From IMG/VR virus record IMGVR_UViG_3300023112_000033, positions 1 to 43,391 of that record: DNA of 43,391 bases; one strand, 5' to 3'. A program made the position numbers and the translations under genes. Source of the DNA: a virus. The notes under the pieces are model-generated. The model searched no databases and was not told where the DNA came from. It saw only the letters and a program-made list of their open reading frames with translations. This document shows positions 3,466 through 43,391 of this stretch, piece by piece (the first letter of the stretch is position 1; each line of letters starts with the position of its first letter).

Positions 3466-3535
3466 GTTATGGATTTATTTATTGGGTACTCCGTACCCTT
3501 TTTGAAATATTTACTTATTAAGGAGATAGATAGTT

Positions 3536-4535: not shown

Positions 4536-5525
4536 ATGTTTCAGCGATTCACAGGAATTCAATACTTGGCATTAGATATAGCAAATACTTTTGGACTAGA
4601 CAAAGAATCTTTCGATTCTAGGCTAGATTGGGTAAGGTTACATAGGGCAGAACTGGAGTCATTTGCAGAAGAAGCAGATGAACCTATGTTATTTCTTAAA
4701 GGTGTAAAAGCTCTTAGAGATGTAGAAGCAGGAAAACTTATAGGACATAATGTCTTTTGGGATTGTACAGCTAGTGGTCTACAGCTAATGGCTTGTCTCA
4801 CAGGATGTGAGGCTACAGCATTAGAAGTAAATATTGGTACTGATGAGAGGAAAGATGTGTATATATCTGTAGCTAAACAGATCAATGAGGAATGCGGTTT
4901 TAGCTTTACTAGACAAGATGTTAAACCTGCACTGATGACAAGATATTATAATTCTATACTCAATCCAATAGAAACATTTGGTGAAGATACAGATGAATTG
5001 AAAGCTTTCTATACAATCTTAGGCAAATCCTTTAAAGGAGCTGAAGAGTTTATGGAAGATTGCAATGATATCTATCAGAGCTATAGGAAAGATGTATATA
5101 GCTGGACATTACCAGATGGTCATGTAGCTGTATGCCCTATAACTGTTACCAAGGTAACTAAGTTAGAGATTGATGAACTGAACCATGAGAAGGTTGCATA
5201 TACTCATTCAGTGAACCAATGGAATAAGAAGGACAGATCACTACCTGCAAATATCATTCATTCAATTGATGGATATGTAGCTAGAGAGATGGTTCGTATG
5301 GCTAGAGAACAGGGATTTGAGCTTGCCCATATACATGATGCATTCACATTTTTACCTAACTATGGTAATCAAGTAAGACAGAACTTCTTAGACATACTCC
5401 AAGGGATAGCTAAGAGTAATCTATTAGGTGATATCTTCAATGAAATAGCAGGTGAAGATGTAGGTTGGGAAAGAGTAGGTGATATCTCAGAATTGATCCA
5501 TAAATCAAACTACGCTCTTTCATAG
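4536..5525 (+). CDS. N4-type RNA polymerase II, subunit 2 (catalytic part)
   Basis: Catalytic half of the middle RNA polymerase, 329 residues against about 400 for N4 gp16. Visible motifs in order: motif A DCTASGLQLMACL (aspartate at about residue 76, the first metal ligand), motif B RQDVKPALMTRYYNS (lysine at about 130; the usual Tyr-Gly is Tyr-Asn here), and motif C HIHDAFTFLP (aspartate at about 267, the second metal ligand). With subunit 1 it forms one active polymerase. An AAGGAGA ribosome binding site precedes the ATG and a strong terminator follows. Confidence 0.92.
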   Translation: MFQRFTGIQYLALDIANTFGLDKESFDSRLDWVRLHRAELESFAEEADEPMLFLKGVKALRDVEAGKLIGHNVFWDCTASGLQLMACLTGCEATALEVNIGTDERKDVYISVAKQINEECGFSFTRQDVKPALMTRYYNSILNPIETFGEDTDELKAFYTILGKSFKGAEEFMEDCNDIYQSYRKDVYSWTLPDGHVAVCPITVTKVTKLEIDELNHEKVAYTHSVNQWNKKDRSLPANIIHSIDGYVAREMVRMAREQGFELAHIHDAFTFLPNYGNQVRQNFLDILQGIAKSNLLGDIFNEIAGEDVGWERVGDISELIHKSNYALS

Positions 5526-5531
5526 GGCTAC

Positions 5532-5569
5532 AGGTACTAGAGCTGAGAAGCTTTAGTACCTATTTTTTT
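5532..5569 (+). terminator. Intrinsic terminator after RNA polymerase genes
   Basis: AGGTACT/AGTACCT stem with an inner AGCT-GAGA-AGCT hairpin, followed by seven T. It closes the RNA polymerase unit. Confidence 0.88.
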
Positions 5570-5572
5570 GTC

Positions 5573-5618: not shown

Positions 5619-5957
5619 ATGAAACTAACAATATTAAGTGTACCAATGATATTTCCACAAACAGCAGTATTAAGTACTGCAATCACGCTTAATGAAGCAA
5701 GAGAGTTAGTAGCAGATGCAGAAGAAGTCATCAACTATTGTGGTCACTCAACCATGTTAGCCCTTGGTATTGAACCAGCAACAACTAGGGATCAATGTGA
5801 GTCTTATACTGATGCTTTGGTTCTCAAGCCAAACGCTCGTTTAGAATTTGGTAGAGAGTACTCTGTTGAAGAGATCATGGATATTGGTGTAACAGCAGTT
5901 CACTTGAGAACACTAACACCTCTTTTTGATAAAGAAGAGGGTCGAATGTATTTTTAG
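5619..5957 (+). CDS. DUF1874 family protein, candidate viral ring nuclease (AcrIII-1-like)
   Basis: 112 residues resembling the DUF1874 (STIV B116) family. Members studied as AcrIII-1 degrade cyclic tetra-adenylate and so switch off type III CRISPR defence. Family features visible: a leading strand MKLTILSVPMIF, the segment LNEARELVADAEEVINYCGH with the Gly-His (H43) that aligns with the catalytic histidine of AcrIII-1, an arginine at 57 after the second helix, DALVL (65-69), and the R-L-E-F-G segment (R74, E76) followed by YSVEEI. It is the first gene after the polymerase terminator and the GCTCCGCT element, an apt place for an early defence-blocking gene. The alignment was made from memory, so family membership is likely and enzyme activity unproven. 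Confidence 0.7.
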   Translation: MKLTILSVPMIFPQTAVLSTAITLNEARELVADAEEVINYCGHSTMLALGIEPATTRDQCESYTDALVLKPNARLEFGREYSVEEIMDIGVTAVHLRTLTPLFDKEEGRMYF

Positions 5958-7271: not shown

Positions 7272-7550
7272 ATGATTAATACTAATTTAAGTCCAGATCA
7301 AATGTTAGATATCTGTGGCTTTGTCACAGAGCATAAGAAGACATTTCAAGAGAATAAATTGAACTTAGGTGCTATGGCTTTGTTCTGTAATACTCACTTC
7401 GATTTTGAAGTGAAAAAACATGACATAGTATTTCTATGTGAAGCAGTAAAGATTCTATTGGATCAAAGGAACCAACCAGTAATGCATGTAGCTAAAAAGA
7501 TAATTCATGATTTACAAGGTCAAATACAGGAGTTAAAAAATGAAAGTTAA
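7272..7550 (+). CDS. Hypothetical protein, 92 aa, upstream of variable cassette A
   Basis: Unknown family, mainly helical, one central segment AMALFCNTHFDFEVKKHDIV. AAGGAAA precedes the ATG. Its last ten bases overlap the start of variable cassette A, and an AGGAG within its 3' end serves that cassette. It is not the usual upstream half of a sulfatase-modifying-factor fold, which makes the position of cassette A odd. The 180 bases before it are gene-free but can fold (GGAGGGGATT near 7116 pairs imperfectly with ATTCCCTCTCC near 7151). Confidence 0.65.
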   Translation: MINTNLSPDQMLDICGFVTEHKKTFQENKLNLGAMALFCNTHFDFEVKKHDIVFLCEAVKILLDQRNQPVMHVAKKIIHDLQGQIQELKNES

Positions 7551-7714
7551 TCCAATTAATTCTAATGGCTCTGACCATGTTATCCGAGGTGGCTCGTGGT
7601 ACGACAACGTGGGCCTCGCCAGGTCTGCTCTCCGTGGCTGGTACTTGCCAGGCCTTCGTGGCGGCAACGTTGGTGTTCGCTTAGTAAGAAAAGCAAAACA
7701 AGGAAATAAATAAT
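7541..7714 (+). CDS. Free-standing variable cassette A, C-terminal part of FGE/C-type lectin fold
   Basis: A 57-residue protein that corresponds to the last section of the formylglycine-generating-enzyme (sulfatase-modifying factor) fold: the hallmark VIRGGSWYD is followed by RSALR and GVRL. The same section is encoded at 8269 with a conserved frame (MKxNPIN, GS, RGGSWYD, RSA, R, P, R) but quite different residues between, at just the surface positions that diversity-generating retroelements vary in this fold. It has its own AGGAG ribosome binding site nine bases before the ATG. The core is strikingly poor in A and rich in G+C compared with the rest of the window. No N-terminal FGE half precedes it. 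Proposed to be an alternative or stored variant of cassette B. Confidence 0.7.
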
Positions 7715-8279
7715 GAATATTCAATCTGAAATTACAGCATTACAAGAACAAATAAACTTACTTAAAGAAAAGCAAGCTAATCAAACTCAACTACCTGACT
7801 GGAATAAAGACTTCAAAGATATTCCTATCAATATACCATTTCTTATGGGTAATACAGATGAGCATCAAGCAGTTATATTAACTAAACCATATCAAATGTG
7901 TGACCACACTGTAACAGAAAAAGAATGGTCTATAGTAATGAGCACCGTATATGCTACAAGTGAGGCTGATCTACCTAAGGTGAATATCTCTTGGAATGAC
8001 TGTCAAGAGTTCATTAAAAAGTTAAATGAATCTCAGGATGAATGGGAATATTCACTCCCTACAGAAGCTGAGTGGGAATGGGCTTGTAAAGGTGGAAGTT
8101 TATTAGAACCCAAGAATATTGATGAGGTTGCTTGGCATTATCATAACTCAGATGAAAGATTACATGAAGGAAAAGAACTAAAACCTAATGGTTTTGGTTT
8201 ATATGACATGTTAGGTAATGTCTGGGAATTCTGTCAAGACTCATACACTTCTTATAAGGATGTTAAAGATGAAAACTAA
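7713..8279 (+). CDS. FGE/sulfatase-modifying-factor-like protein, N-terminal part of a split fold
   Basis: 188 residues with a short coiled-coil start (residues 4-26) and then the FGE-type C-type lectin fold: FLMGNTDEHQAVILTKPY (about 42-59), VTEKEW, ISWNDCQEFIKKLN, the signature LPTEAEWEWACKGG (about 116-129), and GLYDMLGNVWEFCQD (about 162-176). The fold normally continues into an RGGSW segment, but this frame stops after KDEN, and that segment is supplied by the next overlapping frame at 8269. The formylglycine-forming cysteines are not evident, so it is more likely a binding protein than an enzyme. Whether it acts on the virion surface or inside the cell is unknown. Confidence 0.8.
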   Translation: MNIQSEITALQEQINLLKEKQANQTQLPDWNKDFKDIPINIPFLMGNTDEHQAVILTKPYQMCDHTVTEKEWSIVMSTVYATSEADLPKVNISWNDCQEFIKKLNESQDEWEYSLPTEAEWEWACKGGSLLEPKNIDEVAWHYHNSDERLHEGKELKPNGFGLYDMLGNVWEFCQDSYTSYKDVKDEN

Positions 8280-8436
8280 CCCAATTAATACTAGCGGCTC
8301 TCGCCGTGTTAACCGAGGTGGCTCGTGGTACGACTATGCGAGCAGCAGCCGGTCAGCGTATCGTAACCTCTTCTCGCCTGACTATCGTAGCTACGGTTTA
8401 GGGTTCCGTTTGCGCAGGAGAAAGAAAAATGACTAA
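8269..8436 (+). CDS. Variable cassette B, C-terminal part of split FGE/C-type lectin fold
   Basis: 55 residues: MKTNPIN, RVNRGGSWYD, RSAYR, SPDYR, GLGFRL. This is the canonical end of the FGE fold that the upstream protein lacks. It overlaps that gene by 11 bases in another frame and has an AAGGA ribosome binding site nine bases before its ATG, inside the upstream gene. The intact SD and start, and the same arrangement at cassette A, suggest a genuine two-polypeptide protein rather than a chance frameshift. Varied codons between A and B mostly keep a pyrimidine third base (for example GGC/AGC, CTC/AGC, GGC/AAC, GGC/GAC), the footprint expected from adenine mutagenesis of AAC codons. Confidence 0.75.
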   Translation: MKTNPINTSGSRRVNRGGSWYDYASSSRSAYRNLFSPDYRSYGLGFRLRRRKKND

Positions 8437-27800: not shown

Positions 27801-27855
27801 CTTACTAATTCAGACTAAAACCAAAAAGCAATACAATCACCTTGATCAAAGAGAA

Positions 27856-27877
27856 GCTCCGCTTCCTTCTGTGATTT
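27856..27877 (+). promoter_or_regulatory. Repeated GCTCCGCT element, copy 3
   Basis: GCTCCGCTTCCTTCTGTGAT, 17 bases before the nuclease gene's start. See copies at 5573 and 14922. Confidence 0.5.
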
Positions 27878-27893
27878 CTATTAAGGAAAATAT

Positions 27894-28859
27894 ATGTATA
27901 CAAACGAAGAAGGGATAGAATTACCATTAGCTGTATGGCTTGCAGCGGATGAATACGATCATAATTCTGATCCAAAAGCTATTAGTGCTACAACACTACT
28001 CAATCCAATCAAATCATTACTCTTACAGAACAGAATGAATGGTGCATTGGATTCAGAGGTAGATGTAGATATTTTAAGCCAAGTACCATCTAGAATGGGT
28101 ACTGCTTTACATGACTCTATTGAAAGGGCTTGGATTGATCCAGAACTAAGGGTAGCTAGCTTGAAGAAGTTAGGTTATCCAGAAGCAATGGTTAAACAAA
28201 TACAAATTAATCCAACTAACCCTAAAGAAGGTATTCCTATCTACATGGAACAGAGATGGTTTAAAGATCTCAAAGATTATGTCATTTCAGGTAAAGTTGA
28301 TTTTGTAATGGAAGGTGTAGTACAGGATTTCAAATCTACGGGTACTTACACTTGGTTAAATGTCAAAGATAAGACAGATGACTATATTAAACAAGGGTCA
28401 ATCTATAGATGGTTAAGACCTGATATCATTACAGAAGACTATATGAAGATTCATTTCATATTTACTAACTGGTCTAAATTGGAAGCAACTAAGAGTAAGG
28501 ACTACCCTCAGAGTAGGCTCAGAACTATTAAATTAAATTTGATGAGTATTCCTGAAACAGAAGCTTTTATCCAATCTATACTTAATAAGCTTGATACCTT
28601 GAAAGATGCTACTCAAGAACATATGCCTAGGTGTACTGACAAGGAACTGTGGAGAAGTAAATTTGTATGGAAGTACTACAAAGATCCAAATAAGAGAACT
28701 AGATCAACTAAAAACTTTGATAATGAATCTGATGCCTACATGAGATATGTGAATGAAGGTAGCAAAGGTATTGTTGTTAGAACAGGGGGAGATGTAAAAA
28801 GATGTAACTATTGTGATGCTCGCAATATGTGTGACCAAGCCAAAGAATATATAAAATAA
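27894..28859 (+). CDS. PD-(D/E)XK nuclease, Cas4/RecB-like
   Basis: 321 residues. The core SGKVDFVMEGVVQDFKSTG (about 132-150) gives the D...DxK catalytic set, and a QGSIYRWL-type motif follows, as in RecB-like nucleases. The C-terminus has CNYCDARNMC, three cysteines that in Cas4-like enzymes hold an iron-sulfur cluster with a further cysteine. A conserved N-terminal ATTLLNPIKSLLL resembles the usual start of these nucleases. In N4-like phages a gene of this kind is part of the replication set and probably trims DNA ends. Confidence 0.82.
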   Translation: MYTNEEGIELPLAVWLAADEYDHNSDPKAISATTLLNPIKSLLLQNRMNGALDSEVDVDILSQVPSRMGTALHDSIERAWIDPELRVASLKKLGYPEAMVKQIQINPTNPKEGIPIYMEQRWFKDLKDYVISGKVDFVMEGVVQDFKSTGTYTWLNVKDKTDDYIKQGSIYRWLRPDIITEDYMKIHFIFTNWSKLEATKSKDYPQSRLRTIKLNLMSIPETEAFIQSILNKLDTLKDATQEHMPRCTDKELWRSKFVWKYYKDPNKRTRSTKNFDNESDAYMRYVNEGSKGIVVRTGGDVKRCNYCDARNMCDQAKEYIK

Positions 28860-34354: not shown

Positions 34355-34512
34355 TTGAAAAGATTAAACATGGAGTAATTGCTGTAATCCTAGCACCATT
34401 AATAATAGGTGCTTGGATGATTATCCCATTAATCTTGACAATCTTACCTGTAATATTCCTGACTTTAGTCATATATTTTATATTACAGGAAGAATATTCC
34501 AAATCTAAGTAA
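34351..34512 (+). CDS. Small two-span membrane protein, 53 aa
   Basis: ATGA overlap with the previous gene. Hydrophobic from residue 9 to 46 (VIAVILAPLIIGAWMIIPLI and onward), probably two membrane helices in a hairpin, with a charged end (EEYSKSK). Its last eight bases overlap the end of the convergent giant gene, so the two operons meet without any spacer. Function unknown. Confidence 0.6.
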   Translation: MIEKIKHGVIAVILAPLIIGAWMIIPLILTILPVIFLTLVIYFILQEEYSKSK

Positions 34513-37500
34513 GAACTTGGACGACTGCTGGTACAGCAGCAGTCTCCCCTAAACCAAATGGATTCTGAAAAGGTGCAGTTGGTTCTGTAACAATGTTTGA
34601 ATCGAATGGAGTAGATATATCTAATCCAAGCATAGCTTCAAGCATATGTAATAGGAATACTGATGCACTCTTCTCAGTTGTCATCCTAGCTAATACTTTA
34701 AATATTCTAAGAGGATATCGAGTAAATGGTGCTAGACCCATATCATTAGCATATTGAATATACTTATGTGTTGGTAAAGCGTAGTTAATGAAATCTTCTC
34801 TTAAATGGCTAACTACTTGATTAGCAGGTTGCTTTTGGTTCTTAACCAGATGCTCGTATATAGCAAATCTAGCAATGAAATCACTATATTGAGTAAGCTT
34901 TAATGCGAGTTTAAACGTACTTGTATTGGCTCCCATATACAATTGATTAGTAGCTTCTTTACCTAATTGAGGTAATTTATTTAATACAGGATCAGCCCAT
35001 CTGATAAATTTACTCTTATTTGAGTGGAAGTCCTCAGTAGTATCAATATCTTCAACAATAGTTGGAAACAGTCCTTTATCAATTAGAGGTTTAATTGGAT
35101 TAAGCCGCTGTAACTCTTTGTTTGAAACAATTCTTGCTTCAATATCTTTACGTTGTATAGTAGTAATTCCAGCTAACTGTAATTTTTTAGCATCAGATAC
35201 TAACTGCCTTTCAATATTTAACCATCTATCTAAATGACGTATACCTTCTATTTGAAGTTTAGCCATAATTTCAGGAGGGACACCATTAATTATACCAACA
35301 ATAGTATTACTGAATATATTATTCATAATCACTTGAGGTAGCCTTACAACAATAGTTGTCTTAGCAAATTTTACTATTTCTTGCCAAATAGTTTCAGCTT
35401 TTTTAAGCATGGATTGTATTTTATTCCTTGGTTTATCAACTACACTAAACTTCCTATATGCAAAGAAAATATCAACCCAAGCATCTCTGACAACAATACC
35501 ACCATCACCAAACACACTAGTAGCATACCTACGCATATCTTCAGGCATTAATCTATATATCTCAGCTAATTCTGGGTCAGTAGAATCTTTGTTTATGGTT
35601 ACATAGCTCTGAGGTAGTTTTAAATAATTCTTATCAAAGTCTGCTTTAAGAATATCAATAGTTTCTCTATTAAAACCTTTAGTATTAGCCTTGTCTTCCA
35701 TATGAGAATACATATGCCCTAGCACATTAAATGCTCTATCATCTCTTTTGAATAATCTTTTCTCTACAGAATTAGATATAGTATTCCTATAATCTGAGAT
35801 ATGACCTTTATCATCAATAGTAGGGACCATAATATTATCTTGTATAGTGGTATTACTATTAAGAGTACGTTTCATCTCACGGATAGTCTTCATCTTAGTT
35901 TTGTTGAAGTCATTAATATTTTTTAAGAAAGTAGCTACATCATTTGCATTACCTTCTTGTAACATGGATTGACCCATACTAACTTCACTAGTTAAAGAAG
36001 TGATAGTTTTAACCCTAGTGTTTAAAGCATAGTCTTTATTAACCATAAGAACCTTAGGTTTAGAGTTAACTCTAATCTTATTCTCTGGAAGAGAAGATTC
36101 TATAACATAACCTTCTTTTAATAATTGCTCTACATCTACTTCATCAACTACTCTAGTATCAACAAATGGGTCATTTAATTTGGCAGCATAACCCTTGTGT
36201 GTATGCGCTATTTTGTTATCAAAGTTTTTAGTTAAAGATTCTTTCTTGAAAGCATTATGCATATCAACTAAGAAAGTAAACCCATTCTGCTTAGGATTAA
36301 TAGCAACCTCACTATCAATTAAATCAACTACCTGTTTATTAACAGTTGGATTCGTTAATTGTATACCATACAAGCTTGTTAATTTATTAATTAATTCAAT
36401 TGCTAGATCCATATTCTTAGGAGCAGTAATTCCTAATTGAGGAATTGTATGAGGTAATATAGCAATTGATGTTGGATTCAACATAGTGTTGTACCAATTT
36501 GCTTTACCAAAAACATTCAAATGAGCCAAAGAATTACTCTGTTTTCTGTACAAGTTATACAGGTCTTTAGAACCTAACTTACGTAATTGAATAAGGGTAT
36601 CCTTGATCTCATCTCCAACTTTACTTGGATCATCAATCAAATCTCTTAAGTCTTTAAGATTATAATGTTTACGGAATAAAGCAGAAGCATCATTCCTTAT
36701 AAGTCCCTGTGTTAAAGCTTCCCAAGTATTATCTGAAACATTTTCTGTTAACATACTATCTTTGAGATCATTACTTACAACATGACGAACAGTATCTCTA
36801 GTTTTATCTATAACACTCATAGATCTAGCAAGATGTTCAACAATAGGTATCTCTTCTTTATCACCAAAACCAATAACTTCCTTAATTGTAGCCGCTAGGA
36901 ATTTACGTCTAGATACACCCATCTTAGCTGCCATATTATTAAAAGCGTTTAAATAAGCAGAAGTAGTTATTGGATTAACAACACCAGCAACTAATGAAGC
37001 TGTATTTACATACTTATTTTTATGCACTTTAAGGCTAAAATTAGCTAAAGGTTCACCTATCAACTTAGTAGCAACTTTACTAATAACCTTATTACCAGCA
37101 TTCAAACCATTAATAAGAAACTGAGTAGACATATGAGTCTTTTGTATCTTATTTAAATCTTTAACCAAATTCAGTAATACTACATCACCTGTATGGCCCC
37201 TATTAAATCTAAGTAATAAAGCATTTACAGCAATATTAAAATAATGTTGTAAGGTAGCTGCAAAAGATTGTTTCTTACTATCTTTAAGTAAATTAGGTCT
37301 GAAAGAAGCTAAATGTTTAATCAAGTGTTTATTAGTTAATCCATAAGCAACAAATTCATGTAAACTAATTGGCACTTGTTCAGTTTTAATTGTACCTGTA
37401 TTAAGATCCATTAATTGAATTGCTTGTGTTTTCTTATTTCTAAACACGTAATCAAACCTATCTTTAGCAGTTTTCTCCTCAACTAATTGATCTACATATA

Positions 37501-40500
37501 TAGGTTGATTATTTGGATCCAAATTTAAGAATATAAAGTGCTCATTACCTTCACCAAATACTTTAGATAAATGTTCAATAGATTTATCTCTTAATCTAGC
37601 AATCTTATGTACTATATTAGATTTGGTACTAGAGAGTAGTCCAGCCCTACTTATTGCATGACCAACTTCATGTGCATAGGTTTCTCTACCAGACATAGCA
37701 ATAGGATTAGTACTTGTACCTTGAGTAAGAGCTACATATATATTATCTCCAGCAATCCTACCTTTAGTCTTATTACCTAACTCGTCTAATTGTAATGTGA
37801 AATTACCTACACTGGGCATTAATTTAGCAGCATACTCTTCTAAGAAAACTCTCAAATATGCATCATGCTCTGCAGTTTCAGATATATTATCCTTAGCTTT
37901 AATTTCATCATAGGTTTGCGTTAATGTACCTGCATTCAAAGCTACTTTAGGTAGGGACTCATCAATATCTATTTGTCCTGGAGTAGAGCCAAATTCAGCT
38001 GTAATATCATTAACCAAATCCTCAGGAGAAATAACATTACCAGCACTATCTATTGGCTGTCCTTCTCTATTTACTCGTTGTGTTGGTTTAGCTTGTTGAG
38101 CAATAGATCCTTTAATATCATCTCCTGAGAGTATGAACAGGGGATCAGCAAAATGCTGTATAGAAGTAGCTTGGTTAAGTATTTCTAATGTACCTTTTCT
38201 AGTTTCACTAGCGTAATGCTTAACAGCTTTATTTCTATTTTTAAGAAATTTATCTAATCCTGCATTACCACTACCTGCTTCTTCTATAGCTTCCTTGATA
38301 TCTAGTCTAGCTTGCTCAGGAGCACTTACAGATTCATTATATGGATCTGCATCCTGTTTAGATATAACTTCCTTAGGAAAATCAGTTAAGTATTTTCTAA
38401 GAGAAGCTTTATCAGCGGCAGATAATTTGAGAGCATTCTTAACACTTCTATCCAATGTATTGGATACTTCTTGAGCAATAGAGTATTCAGAATTAACTTT
38501 AACAAAATTCTGTAGATAATCAGCAGTAGCTGCTTCAATTAGATTTGATCCAGCTTGTACTGCATCAAACATAGACATCACAGGTTTGCTACCAAATACT
38601 CTTGTAATAAAGGCTGAATCCATACCTTGGGTACCCCCTACTAAAGTAGCAACTCCAGGTTCAGTAAATATTTGTTTATGTATCTGGGATGTAGCTGTAC
38701 CCCCAGGTACAGTATTAAAAAATGCAATAGCTGTATATGCTGGATCATTTTCAGTATTAACTACTTTCTTAGTCTTAGAAGCAAATAAACCTTCTACACG
38801 TCCTTCATCTAGATTTGAATTAGAATCATAGAACTCAATGATAGGTAGAAATGCTCTATATTCCTTAGACTCTAGGAAGTCTCTCATCTGTTTTACCGTA
38901 GGAATACCTTTAGATTCATTGATGAATTTTAGATATCTCCAGTTAAACATATGAGATATAAGATTAATGTTACTATTCATCATTTCTTTAAAAACCTTAG
39001 TATCTTCTAAGTATTTCTTAAGACTAGATTGAACAGTGATACCATAAGACTTACTTAAATGAGTGTGCATCATTTTACGCACATCTTCAGGTAACTTTGT
39101 TTGTTTGATATTGAAACCAGTTTCTAATGTTTTAACAGGTCTGTTATTACCTATATTATGCTCCTTAATAATTTTATTGATAATGCTTTGGGTAGGTGAA
39201 TCTTCACCTCCAACTTCTTCAGCTAGTTTACTTTCAATATCCGTAACCAAAGCAGTAATAATAGTATCAACAGCTTTAGCTATAGCAGCACCATAGTTAG
39301 TAGTCATGGTTGGTGATTTAGCTATCTCCCTAGCTTCTCTAGTTATCTTACCTGTTAGATCCTTAAATTCAGGTACAAAATTGTTGTATGTAGTCATAAA
39401 TTCAAATGGTTTAACTAAATCATTATTAAATTCAAAATTTTCACCTTTAAGCTCTGTATAAATCCGTTTAACCATATTGGTTAAATCAACTTTAATAGCC
39501 TTAAATCCTTTACTATCTCCATTTCTTAAAGCTTCATTCATGTATTCTGCTAAAGAACTTAGTTCAGTAATATCGTTTGCAGCAGCACCAATAACTTGTC
39601 CATAGTTATCTAAATTACCTGGTTTTGAACTCCAAGTAGATAAGTTCTCACCTTCTGTAAAGAAAACTCCACCAGCCTCCAATTTAGCCTTTGTAGATTC
39701 TGTTAATACACCAGCTTGGATTAATCCAATAATAACTCCAGAAGTTACAGCATCATTCTCTTGTGAAATAGATGTAGTTACCTTACCACCAGTTTTAGCT
39801 TTAAAATAATCAACCAATTCAAGAAGAGTATCCAAAGAGTGGGACTTCTCTTCATTATTTGTGAATTTACCTATCTTAGCAAAATCAGACATAGTAGAGT
39901 CTTTATTAGTTAATTTATTAACAAGTTCCTCAACACCTTTATCTGACATAAATTCATCAAACATTTGATTAATTACTGCAGGATCATAATTAAGTTTAAC
40001 CGTACCATCTTTTTGGATCTTAGCAGATTTAATAGCATTAACTTTCTTCTCTAAGTTTTGCCCCAATCCTTGCATAACAGCAAGTTTATATCTAATTTCT
40101 GCATGAGAATTATCACCTTTCTTAAATGTACTTAACCAATCACTATTAAATATAGAATGTCTCTGTAGCTTATTAGCTTGATAATTAAATCCACTTCCTT
40201 GGATCATTATTCTACTGTTAGTAATAGCCATATATTTGAAGAAAAATTCAGAATCTAATCCCCTCTCTTTAACCATGTCATAGAAGGTAAAAAGATTTTC
40301 TATTTCAGTTAGGATACCTAAATTTGCACCTTCATAAGACTTACGATGCTCTAAAGGTTTATCTTCAATAGAGTACTCATATCCAAGATTAATTTTAAAT
40401 AACTCAATTAATTTATTTCTACTGTGGGTTTCTAATAAATTAATAAAAGCTTTCTTGAATCTAAAAGGAACATTGTTAGCATATTGAACACTCTTTTGAA

Positions 40501-43391
40501 TTCCTACAGGTAAAGAGTTACCATTTTTAAAGAATTTAGGGGCAGGAAATTGCTTATCTGAATCATCTTTAAATCTAGGAAATACTGGACTACTAGGTTT
40601 ATCAGTTAAAGATCCAATAACATTGGACATAGTATCTGACTTATTCCTTGAGTCTTTCTCAGTTTTAAATATATGCTCTAATTTATTAGATGTAGCAGGT
40701 AATTCAAGTATACCTCCATTTTCTACAGATGCTCTCTGTTTAAATTCAGCTGTAGTAGTATTAAAAGTGTATTTCTGACCTTTCTTAGTTTGTGCTGCTA
40801 CTTGTACAAGATCGGGTGAACTCATACGAACATATATAGTATATGGTTCACTAGTTGGCCTATCAAAAGCAAAAGCAGGTATAGCTGTTTCTACAACTAA
40901 TTTCTGTTTACCTAGGATATACAGAGCATATTGACCCAGATTTGTTGCCATCTTGTTATCAAAGTTAGAATCTGAGCTATCAACTGCAGTAATACCAACT
41001 TCTCTAAGAATAGCTTTACCCAATTCTAAAGCGAGAGTAGTCCTAGGAACCCCAGCATAACCAAATATATTATATTGATCACTAGTAGGACTATCTTTAG
41101 TATCTGCACCTCTAGCCCTATTTACTGTTTCCTTGGTTGCAGATAAAGTAGTTTTACCCTGTGTAGTTAACCAATTCATAGAAGTAGTAGCCATAGCACT
41201 TAGGATATTACGATCCATATAACCTGACTCTACACCACCTACATTTAACTTCTTGAAAAGTAATTGAACTGGATCTAACCTAATACTTTCTTCAGGAGTA
41301 ATAAATTGATTTGTACCTAGAGAAGTATTTATAACTGGACGCATAAACTTCTCAAATTCTGAATATTTCTTTGTTTTACCCTGCTTATCTGTATAGGTAC
41401 TTTCTCTCCTAGCAGTAGCAACAAATTTCTTTTCAAAAGTTATTAAACTTTTAATTAACTCTTTCTGAGTAGCACTTGGATCTTTAAATATTTGTAAAGG
41501 ATTCTTACCTAATTCTACAAATAAATTCTGCACTGTAGAAAGTAAGCTTTTACTTGAAGCTACATTATCTATAAACTCAACAGCAATCTCATTACCTTCA
41601 TCATCCTTTATAATCTTAAAATCAGGTTTAGTCTTCTTAGCTGGTTTAAAGAAATTAGCTAACTTCTTGGTATATGCAGGGAAGGTAGGTCTACGATCCT
41701 TAAATTTAAATATGTTTAAATGATTACTAACCTTACCCCATTTACCAAAATCTTCCTCCTGATTAACCAAAATATCTGATAGGTTATAAGTAACCTCACC
41801 ATCTTTAGTTTTAACCTTCTTATTGGTTAATGCAACAATACCTTCTTCATTTCGATCCAATAAAGTAAGCTTGTCATAGTCTCTAATTACATGAGTATCA
41901 TCTGAAGTAGGTATAATTTCAGTTGTTGTGCTAGCAGTCTTCTTATCTTTAAAGTTTGGATCATCTCTAGGATCAACTTCTTCAGATGTCTTCCCTTTAA
42001 GTTCTACTTTCTTAGAGGCAGTATGCTTAGGAACTTCTTGTTTAAATACCGCAGAATCAAATACAGCTTTACCCTGTTTAGTGAAATCAATATCTTCTTG
42101 TTTAACAGGGACATTATCTGAATGTAAACCAACACCTTTATTTATTACTACCAATTTAGATGTTGCTCTTGTATACGCAACATACAGAGCATTATATAAT
42201 GTTTTAAGAGGAATACTTCCTGTTCTTTCTTGCTCATTGCTAACAATATTATCTTCCATAACATACACATTTCTATAGGAGGATCCCTGAGATTTATGTG
42301 TATTGATTGAATAAGCAAATTGAACATGAGGAACATTACCTTCCATCAATCTAACTAGTGGAGTTAAATTAGCTGCTTTAGCCTTACTTACCCTATCATT
42401 CCTATTTGCATTTCTTTGAATAAATTGTTGGATCCTAGAAATATTACCGAGTAACTCATTAATAGGGTGTGTTGATTGTGGAGATGGTAAATAACTAGTT
42501 GTTTCTGTTTCAGAGATTAAGTTACGCATACTTACTTCATAAAACTTAATTGGTTTACCTGCTAAATTGGCGTTCTCACCAGAAAATATAGCTTCTTTAA
42601 TCTCTGCAAAAGTACGTTTAGCATTTGTTTTAAACTTGTCATCAGTAGCTGCTACCTGTATGGCAATGTACGCATCAAAAAATTCACCAACATTCTTTGC
42701 AGAAGCAACGCCAGTAACTTTACTCGAATCTACTAGTGTAGGTTTAGAAGTTACCTTATACTCAAAAGAATTTCCAAGACCATCTACTTTAAGTAAACCT
42801 GTCTCTACATCAACGTCATCTGTCTCTTTATTAGTGCTATAAGAAATTAGAGCATCATTCTCAACATATGCATCAATTTCTTCACTATCAGCACCATATA
42901 TTGTCTTTCTGACTATTCTATTTAAGTTAGCAACAGAAGTATCTATACTGAATTTACGCTCATTATTATAAGTAAGTATTCTAGTTGATTCAGGATTCTC
43001 TTTGAAATCAGATATAAATTGATCCAATGCACTATCAGAACCTTTACCTAAGAATTGTACACCAGCATTCTTCTTTGGAGCAAAAACATTGAACCTATCA
43101 CTAACCTTGAGTAGTAGTTTACCTGCTTTTTCTTTAAGGAAAGCCCCTGCACCTTCAGCATGGAATTCATCTAATACACTAACAAATGCATCACCAATAG
43201 GTGTAATAGGTGATCCAGTATTCTGACGCACTCTAACAACTAACTCTGCTGAATGATCATACCCTTTTTCAAAAATAACTGAGTCTTTATTTTTGACCTC
43301 AACATTTGAATTATCATCTCTTACAGGTGCAAACTGATTAGGGTCACCAATATATAACTTCTTAATATGACCTAATTTAGGGTTATTTAAA
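34505..43391 (-). CDS. Virion RNA polymerase (N4 gp50-like) with fused SF1 helicase and zincin motif, N-terminus beyond window
   Basis: At least 2961 residues, open to the right edge. Numbering from the first full codon in the window: helicase motif III IGDPNQFAPV (14-23), motif IV-like LVVRVRQNTGSPI, motif V THKSQGSSYRNVYV (H365) and motif VI LYVAYTRATSKLVV (R408). The RNA polymerase follows: T/DxxGR-like TNSRIMI (R1060), motif A ENDAVTSGV (D1213), motif B REIAKSPTMTTNYG (R1354, K1358, Y1366, with T7 spacing), GTQGMDSAFI, and motif C MSMFDAV (D1609). Then a zincin AHEVGHAIS (H1907, E1908, H1911) and a long helical C-terminus ending in a phage polyvalent-protein-like segment. In N4 this enzyme is packaged, injected, and transcribes early genes. 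The opposite strand and position after SSB agree. Confidence 0.88.
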   Translation of the reverse strand, partial: LNNPKLGHIKKLYIGDPNQFAPVRDDNSNVEVKNKDSVIFEKGYDHSAELVVRVRQNTGSPITPIGDAFVSVLDEFHAEGAGAFLKEKAGKLLLKVSDRFNVFAPKKNAGVQFLGKGSDSALDQFISDFKENPESTRILTYNNERKFSIDTSVANLNRIVRKTIYGADSEEIDAYVENDALISYSTNKETDDVDVETGLLKVDGLGNSFEYKVTSKPTLVDSSKVTGVASAKNVGEFFDAYIAIQVAATDDKFKTNAKRTFAEIKEAIFSGENANLAGKPIKFYEVSMRNLISETETTSYLPSPQSTHPINELLGNISRIQQFIQRNANRNDRVSKAKAANLTPLVRLMEGNVPHVQFAYSINTHKSQGSSYRNVYVMEDNIVSNEQERTGSIPLKTLYNALYVAYTRATSKLVVINKGVGLHSDNVPVKQEDIDFTKQGKAVFDSAVFKQEVPKHTASKKVELKGKTSEEVDPRDDPNFKDKKTASTTTEIIPTSDDTHVIRDYDKLTLLDRNEEGIVALTNKKVKTKDGEVTYNLSDILVNQEEDFGKWGKVSNHLNIFKFKDRRPTFPAYTKKLANFFKPAKKTKPDFKIIKDDEGNEIAVEFIDNVASSKSLLSTVQNLFVELGKNPLQIFKDPSATQKELIKSLITFEKKFVATARRESTYTDKQGKTKKYSEFEKFMRPVINTSLGTNQFITPEESIRLDPVQLLFKKLNVGGVESGYMDRNILSAMATTSMNWLTTQGKTTLSATKETVNRARGADTKDSPTSDQYNIFGYAGVPRTTLALELGKAILREVGITAVDSSDSNFDNKMATNLGQYALYILGKQKLVVETAIPAFAFDRPTSEPYTIYVRMSSPDLVQVAAQTKKGQKYTFNTTTAEFKQRASVENGGILELPATSNKLEHIFKTEKDSRNKSDTMSNVIGSLTDKPSSPVFPRFKDDSDKQFPAPKFFKNGNSLPVGIQKSVQYANNVPFRFKKAFINLLETHSRNKLIELFKINLGYEYSIEDKPLEHRKSYEGANLGILTEIENLFTFYDMVKERGLDSEFFFKYMAITNSRIMIQGSGFNYQANKLQRHSIFNSDWLSTFKKGDNSHAEIRYKLAVMQGLGQNLEKKVNAIKSAKIQKDGTVKLNYDPAVINQMFDEFMSDKGVEELVNKLTNKDSTMSDFAKIGKFTNNEEKSHSLDTLLELVDYFKAKTGGKVTTSISQENDAVTSGVIIGLIQAGVLTESTKAKLEAGGVFFTEGENLSTWSSKPGNLDNYGQVIGAAANDITELSSLAEYMNEALRNGDSKGFKAIKVDLTNMVKRIYTELKGENFEFNNDLVKPFEFMTTYNNFVPEFKDLTGKITREAREIAKSPTMTTNYGAAIAKAVDTIITALVTDIESKLAEEVGGEDSPTQSIINKIIKEHNIGNNRPVKTLETGFNIKQTKLPEDVRKMMHTHLSKSYGITVQSSLKKYLEDTKVFKEMMNSNINLISHMFNWRYLKFINESKGIPTVKQMRDFLESKEYRAFLPIIEFYDSNSNLDEGRVEGLFASKTKKVVNTENDPAYTAIAFFNTVPGGTATSQIHKQIFTEPGVATLVGGTQGMDSAFITRVFGSKPVMSMFDAVQAGSNLIEAATADYLQNFVKVNSEYSIAQEVSNTLDRSVKNALKLSAADKASLRKYLTDFPKEVISKQDADPYNESVSAPEQARLDIKEAIEEAGSGNAGLDKFLKNRNKAVKHYASETRKGTLEILNQATSIQHFADPLFILSGDDIKGSIAQQAKPTQRVNREGQPIDSAGNVISPEDLVNDITAEFGSTPGQIDIDESLPKVALNAGTLTQTYDEIKAKDNISETAEHDAYLRVFLEEYAAKLMPSVGNFTLQLDELGNKTKGRIAGDNIYVALTQGTSTNPIAMSGRETYAHEVGHAISRAGLLSSTKSNIVHKIARLRDKSIEHLSKVFGEGNEHFIFLNLDPNNQPIYVDQLVEEKTAKDRFDYVFRNKKTQAIQLMDLNTGTIKTEQVPISLHEFVAYGLTNKHLIKHLASFRPNLLKDSKKQSFAATLQHYFNIAVNALLLRFNRGHTGDVVLLNLVKDLNKIQKTHMSTQFLINGLNAGNKVISKVATKLIGEPLANFSLKVHKNKYVNTASLVAGVVNPITTSAYLNAFNNMAAKMGVSRRKFLAATIKEVIGFGDKEEIPIVEHLARSMSVIDKTRDTVRHVVSNDLKDSMLTENVSDNTWEALTQGLIRNDASALFRKHYNLKDLRDLIDDPSKVGDEIKDTLIQLRKLGSKDLYNLYRKQSNSLAHLNVFGKANWYNTMLNPTSIAILPHTIPQLGITAPKNMDLAIELINKLTSLYGIQLTNPTVNKQVVDLIDSEVAINPKQNGFTFLVDMHNAFKKESLTKNFDNKIAHTHKGYAAKLNDPFVDTRVVDEVDVEQLLKEGYVIESSLPENKIRVNSKPKVLMVNKDYALNTRVKTITSLTSEVSMGQSMLQEGNANDVATFLKNINDFNKTKMKTIREMKRTLNSNTTIQDNIMVPTIDDKGHISDYRNTISNSVEKRLFKRDDRAFNVLGHMYSHMEDKANTKGFNRETIDILKADFDKNYLKLPQSYVTINKDSTDPELAEIYRLMPEDMRRYATSVFGDGGIVVRDAWVDIFFAYRKFSVVDKPRNKIQSMLKKAETIWQEIVKFAKTTIVVRLPQVIMNNIFSNTIVGIINGVPPEIMAKLQIEGIRHLDRWLNIERQLVSDAKKLQLAGITTIQRKDIEARIVSNKELQRLNPIKPLIDKGLFPTIVEDIDTTEDFHSNKSKFIRWADPVLNKLPQLGKEATNQLYMGANTSTFKLALKLTQYSDFIARFAIYEHLVKNQKQPANQVVSHLREDFINYALPTHKYIQYANDMGLAPFTRYPLRIFKVLARMTTEKSASVFLLHMLEAMLGLDISTPFDSNIVTEPTAPFQNPFGLGETAAVPAVVQVLT

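Follow-up and report, generated by a model that had tools for sequence, protein, structure and literature searches.

Gene and genomic setting of P0001

An open reading frame encoding the DUF1874-like protein P0001 lies next to an N4-type RNA polymerase gene in a 43,391-base virus record. The whole of this record is referred to as the window. The gene and the features around it, with positions counted from the first base of the window, are as follows.

4536-5525 (+): N4-type RNAP2 gene, just upstream of the P0001 gene (phrog_2051, E=1.8e-102)
5532-5571 (+): terminator-like hairpin (5532-5561, 13 pairs) with a T-rich tail, between RNAP2 and the P0001 gene
5607-5612 (+): AAAGGA, a plausible ribosome-binding site 6 bases before the ATG, read directly from the sequence
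5619-5957 (+): gene for the DUF1874-like protein P0001, an ATG open reading frame of 112 codons (112 amino acids)
5745-5747 (+): codon of H43, aligned with the catalytic H47 of SIRV1 gp29
5787-5789 (+): codon of R57, aligned with the arginine of the family 'NR' motif (R66 of SIRV1 gp29)
5838-5852 (+): codons of R74-G78 (RLEFG), the aligned counterpart of the RLPEG loop, with Phe77 at the place of the family glutamate

The P0001 gene is real. The 112-residue frame and all of the motifs quoted for it in the first-pass annotation were present as described, with EARELV at residues 26-31, NYCGH ending in H43, R57, and DALVL at residues 65-69. Residues 74-86 read RLEFGREYSVEEI. A small open reading frame begins 9 bases 3' of the gene.

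Five N4-type genes were identified in the window (phrog_2166, phrog_2051, phrog_2135, phrog_743 and phrog_1297). The window carries the split RNAP1/RNAP2 polymerase together with an N4-type primase, single-strand binding protein (SSB) and ATPase, and by these neighbouring genes, along with a giant open reading frame that weakly matches a virion-RNAP domain, the phage is classed as N4-like (Schitoviridae-like). The P0001 gene had been described as occupying an early position. This is doubtful, since the terminator-like hairpin separates it from RNAP2 and the gene probably begins a new transcription unit. A hairpin of the virion-RNAP type was looked for between the terminator-like hairpin and the P0001 gene, and none was found. 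Elsewhere in the window, a GGGTAC-TCC-GTACCC hairpin stands before RNAP1 (3484-3498) and a GAAGC-TCC-GCTTC hairpin (27853-27865) stands before the gene at 27894. We take both to resemble N4 virion-RNAP promoters.

Two further regions of the window were recorded. A giant open reading frame on the minus strand (34505-43390, at least 2,961 codons) matches the virion-RNAP domain weakly, below the cut-off (E=0.0056), and carries a UvrD-like helicase C-terminal motif close to its N-terminus; it may possibly encode a fusion of a helicase with a virion RNA polymerase of the N4 type. A formylglycine-generating-enzyme-like (FGE-sulfatase) fold is present in pieces at 7540-7713, 7713-8279 and 8218-8436. 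The N-terminal piece is at 7713-8279, and a C-terminal piece with its own start and ribosome-like site lies on either side of it. The DNA of the two C-terminal pieces is shared as far as GGSWYD; beyond that point most differences fall at scattered codons, a pattern that resembles the variable regions of diversity-generating retroelements. The window record yielded no reverse transcriptase.

Relationship of P0001 to DUF1874

DUF1874 is taken here to correspond to Pfam PF08960 (STIV_B116-like; AcrIII-1/Crn2). A profile search against DUF1874, the check proposed in the first-pass annotation, gave a divided answer. PF08960 scored P0001 at 17.5 bits (E=0.0046), and at 15.9 bits in a second profile search, below the Pfam curated cut-off of 26, so that routine annotation would overlook the protein. 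A family profile was then used that comprised 50 non-redundant viral DUF1874 proteins, gathered by a query that did not include P0001. Among the 485 open reading frames of the window, this profile picked out P0001 at E=1.3e-8 and 29.4 bits, a figure that includes residues translated from the open frame 5' of the ATG; the runner-up scored 4.3 bits. The P0001 protein itself scored 28.1 bits with the family profile, compared to 8.2 for the highest of 5,000 shuffles, and it kept 20.3 bits when the YCGHST motif was masked. A second, independent DUF1874 alignment without P0001 also recovered P0001 from the window (E=1.7e-6). Comparison of P0001 by hhalign with an alignment of 24 family members, again without P0001, gave a probability of 96.8% (E=2.1e-10). 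When P0001 was used as a single-sequence query against 16,697 open reading frames of the fetched loci, the top 25 matches were all DUF1874 proteins. The agreement of the profile, shuffle, hhalign and single-sequence results makes it near certain that P0001 is a strongly diverged, remote homologue of the DUF1874 superfamily, with an identity to family members of about 14-31%.

Searches with P0001 alone of phages, plasmids, viral contigs and genome contigs returned no relative, and neither the NCBIfam nor the PADLOC models matched P0001. A sequence search of the PDB gave YhaM as its sole match, which was judged meaningless. The family tree was unable to place P0001, which sat on a branch of 10 changes per column, and no clade is therefore claimed for it.

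Structure prediction by AF2 without an alignment was poor (pLDDT 41), and this model was left out of the fold search. With 59 family sequences the pLDDT rose to 90.3. At E<=0.001, Foldseek matched this model in the PDB only to AFV3-109, SIRV1 gp29, STIV B116 and Csx1-Crn2. The Z scores to these family structures were 9.8-11.1, with one Csx1-Crn2 entry at 6.8, and the first unrelated PDB chain had a Z of 2.8. The model has the DUF1874 monomer fold, a result that is partly circular. Because the input alignment was itself DUF1874, the match speaks for compatibility more than it offers independent proof, and the predicted P0001 monomer is described as compatible with DUF1874.

The distribution of the gene was assessed in other N4-like phages. 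No relative of P0001 was found among 11,252 open reading frames around RNAP2 from 80 N4-like loci and three phages (best score 8.9 bits), nor did 50 other N4-like whole records contain a match to the DUF1874 profile without P0001, for which the window was the sole positive control (1.7e-6). A candidate role as an N4 core gene was rejected on these results. Other genes occupy the slot after RNAP2 in the closest N4-like loci. P0001 thus appears to be a patchy accessory gene in a variable slot, as would be expected of a counter-defence gene.

Active-site residues and proposed function

Residues were compared in an alignment of 60 sequences (rows), in which the apparent conservation of the family is owed partly to the search patterns used. 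G42, H43 and R57 were invariant in all 60 rows and R74 was present in 59; P0001 keeps these four residues and G78. H43, previously proposed as the active-site histidine, does occupy the position of the catalytic H47 of SIRV1 gp29, and R74 is the conserved arginine of the RLPEG loop. The glutamate of this loop (E88 of SIRV1 gp29) is found three places after the arginine in 52 of the 60 rows, but P0001 has Phe77 at this place and a glutamate one place earlier. In addition, the conserved N-terminal Asn8 is Ser7 in P0001, the asparagine of the 'NR' motif is Thr56, and the Ser-Ala that precedes [VI]-Gly-His is Asn-Tyr. The segment from the histidine to the arginine comprises 14 residues, five fewer than the 19 present in 47 of the 60 rows. 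Little weight was given to the loss of [SA]-T-A after the histidine: many homologues had been retrieved by patterns that include [SA]-T-A, which inflates its conservation. The roles of R66, R85 and E88 in SIRV1 gp29 are presumed from conservation and general background.

The DUF1874/AcrIII-1 call of the first-pass annotation therefore stands for remote homology and fold, but not for the Pfam cut-off, the RLPEG glutamate, the two asparagines or the full post-histidine segment. Since P0001 falls short of the Pfam threshold and lacks the loop glutamate, both of which were tested, and since its activity is predicted from sequence, P0001 is not filed as an established AcrIII-1; AcrIII-1 serves as a working model in which membership is not established.

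AcrIII-1 enzymes are dimers acting on cyclic tetra-adenylate (cA4), which they bind and cut by means of a histidine that serves as general acid (PMC7371418, PMC7293037). AcrIII-1 is the commonest phage ring nuclease, present in 36 of 28,114 genomes (PMC12409355). For P0001, we infer dimerisation, a cyclic ligand, catalysis and an anti-CRISPR or anti-defence role. Ring cleavage is the best single reading because the histidine and two arginines are retained. P0001 would then be an accessory counter-defence ring nuclease, a dimer that cleaves a cyclic oligoadenylate, probably cA4. We assign this reading a probability of about 0.58. In its weaker form, the best reading asks only for binding of a cyclic oligoadenylate by P0001, with or without cleavage.

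According to this model, P0001 would be a fast-diverged phage member of DUF1874 (AcrIII-1/Crn2), accessory in an N4-like phage. Two copies would dimerise around a central pocket that takes a cyclic oligoadenylate, probably cA4. R57 and R74 would hold the phosphates while H43 acted as general acid, and in-line attack by the ribose 2'-OH would open the ring to linear products. During infection, the type III CRISPR signalling branch, or a related cyclic-nucleotide defence, would be switched off.

The lost glutamate and the changed pocket make sequestration or another cyclic ligand real alternatives. It is a tentative proposal, and one that we consider unlikely overall, that the altered pocket now accepts another cyclic nucleotide, or sequesters its ligand instead of cleaving it, and so represents a new counter-defence activity on a known fold. 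Taken separately, each of these alternatives is rather improbable. The pocket may bind a cyclic nucleotide and blunt the alarm by sequestering it, with cleavage weak or lost now that the RLPEG glutamate and its neighbours are gone, as Phe77, Ser7 and Thr56 would suggest. The fold can bind its ligand without cutting it, since the H47A substitution in SIRV1 gp29 abolishes activity while cA4 binding persists at about 25 nM (PMC7213978). However, the catalytic histidine kept in P0001 would be needless for a pure sponge, and L057, one of the best matches to P0001, likewise has a displaced glutamate. Similarly doubtful is the proposal that P0001 cleaves or binds another ring (cA3, cA5, cA6 or a CBASS-type ring) in a pocket reshaped by the shorter post-histidine segment. 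The shortened segment and changed pocket residues, together with the retained cleavage residues H43, R57 and R74, are consistent with this proposal, yet the characterised enzymes of the family are specific for cA4 (PMC7371418, PMC7293037) and short forms that keep RLPEG exist.

Less probable again is a different role for the DUF1874 fold, for example the control of transcription through binding to nucleic acid. The annotation 'DNA binding protein' is attached to several viral relatives and the P0001 gene adjoins RNA polymerase genes, but these annotations are older than the studies of ring nucleases with this fold, and the variability of the neighbouring slot between N4-like phages makes a core role in N4 transcription unlikely. 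A chance resemblance, in which an unrelated small phage protein carries a GH motif, would accord with the sub-threshold Pfam score and the lack of a close homologue in the collections searched, but is very improbable given that the profile, shuffle, single-sequence and profile-profile tests are concordant.

These results assign an AcrIII-1-like gene to a phage of the N4-like group, with no other example in 50 records. Because standard domain thresholds miss diverged members such as P0001, counts of phages that use ring nucleases for counter-defence may be too low. As a natural variant that lacks the loop glutamate, P0001 could indicate which active-site residues ring nucleases need, and also which signals phages must disarm.

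Comparison with known ring nucleases and DUF1874 proteins

A pattern scan of viral contigs identified two kinds of short-segment DUF1874 proteins. One kind (L083, L084, L087, L088, L092 and L097) keeps RLPEG, and the other (L086, L090, L096 and L099) lacks the RLPEG glutamate, as does P0001. The proteins of the latter kind, short and without an RLPEG loop, have a Pfam score below the cut-off or none. The short-segment proteins have 13 residues from histidine to arginine, compared to 14 in P0001; they are 15-28% identical to P0001, and the tree cannot group P0001 with them.

The top single-sequence matches of P0001 were bacterial YddF-type DUF1874 proteins (Fusobacterium phages; L057 and L225). 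The loop glutamate of L057 is displaced (RPEPG), like that of P0001. Unlike P0001, the YddF-type proteins have a full-length post-histidine segment and normal SA-[VI]-GH and NR motifs. Several of the oddities of P0001 have precedents, and their combination was met nowhere else.

Two observations concern other loci. L248 carries tandem DUF1874 copies (1418-1777 and 1971-2309, both on the plus strand), the first of which lacks the Gly-His motif. The PADLOC model PDLC01147, named Csx16, matched L057:2992-3315 at 3.6e-18 and SIRV1 gp29 (L002:16362-16706) at 5.5e-8. Annotations made with PDLC01147 may mislabel AcrIII-1/Crn2 proteins, or the Csx16 and DUF1874 families may be related.

Among proteins of known structure, AFV3-109 (2j6b; Z 11.1) and STIV B116 (2j85; Z 11.0) have the fold of the P0001 model. 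Both are from archaeal viruses and, unlike P0001, have a full-length post-histidine segment. The Crn2 domain of Marinitoga Csx1-Crn2 (PDB 8y7g, 8y7f) also has the same fold (Z 11.0), and its catalytic histidine (H495) is the equivalent of H43 in P0001 (PMC7293037). Marinitoga Crn2 is a host protein fused to Csx1, whereas P0001 comes from a phage, is free-standing and has the changed residues and shorter segment already described. The AcrIII-1 of SIRV1, gp29 (PDB 6scf, 2x4i), is alike in fold (Z 11.0, 96 residues at 3.0 A) and has the histidine, both arginines and the following glycine in common with P0001. The two proteins are about 20% identical, and P0001 differs from gp29 in lacking the RLPEG glutamate and the conserved asparagines and in its shorter post-histidine segment.
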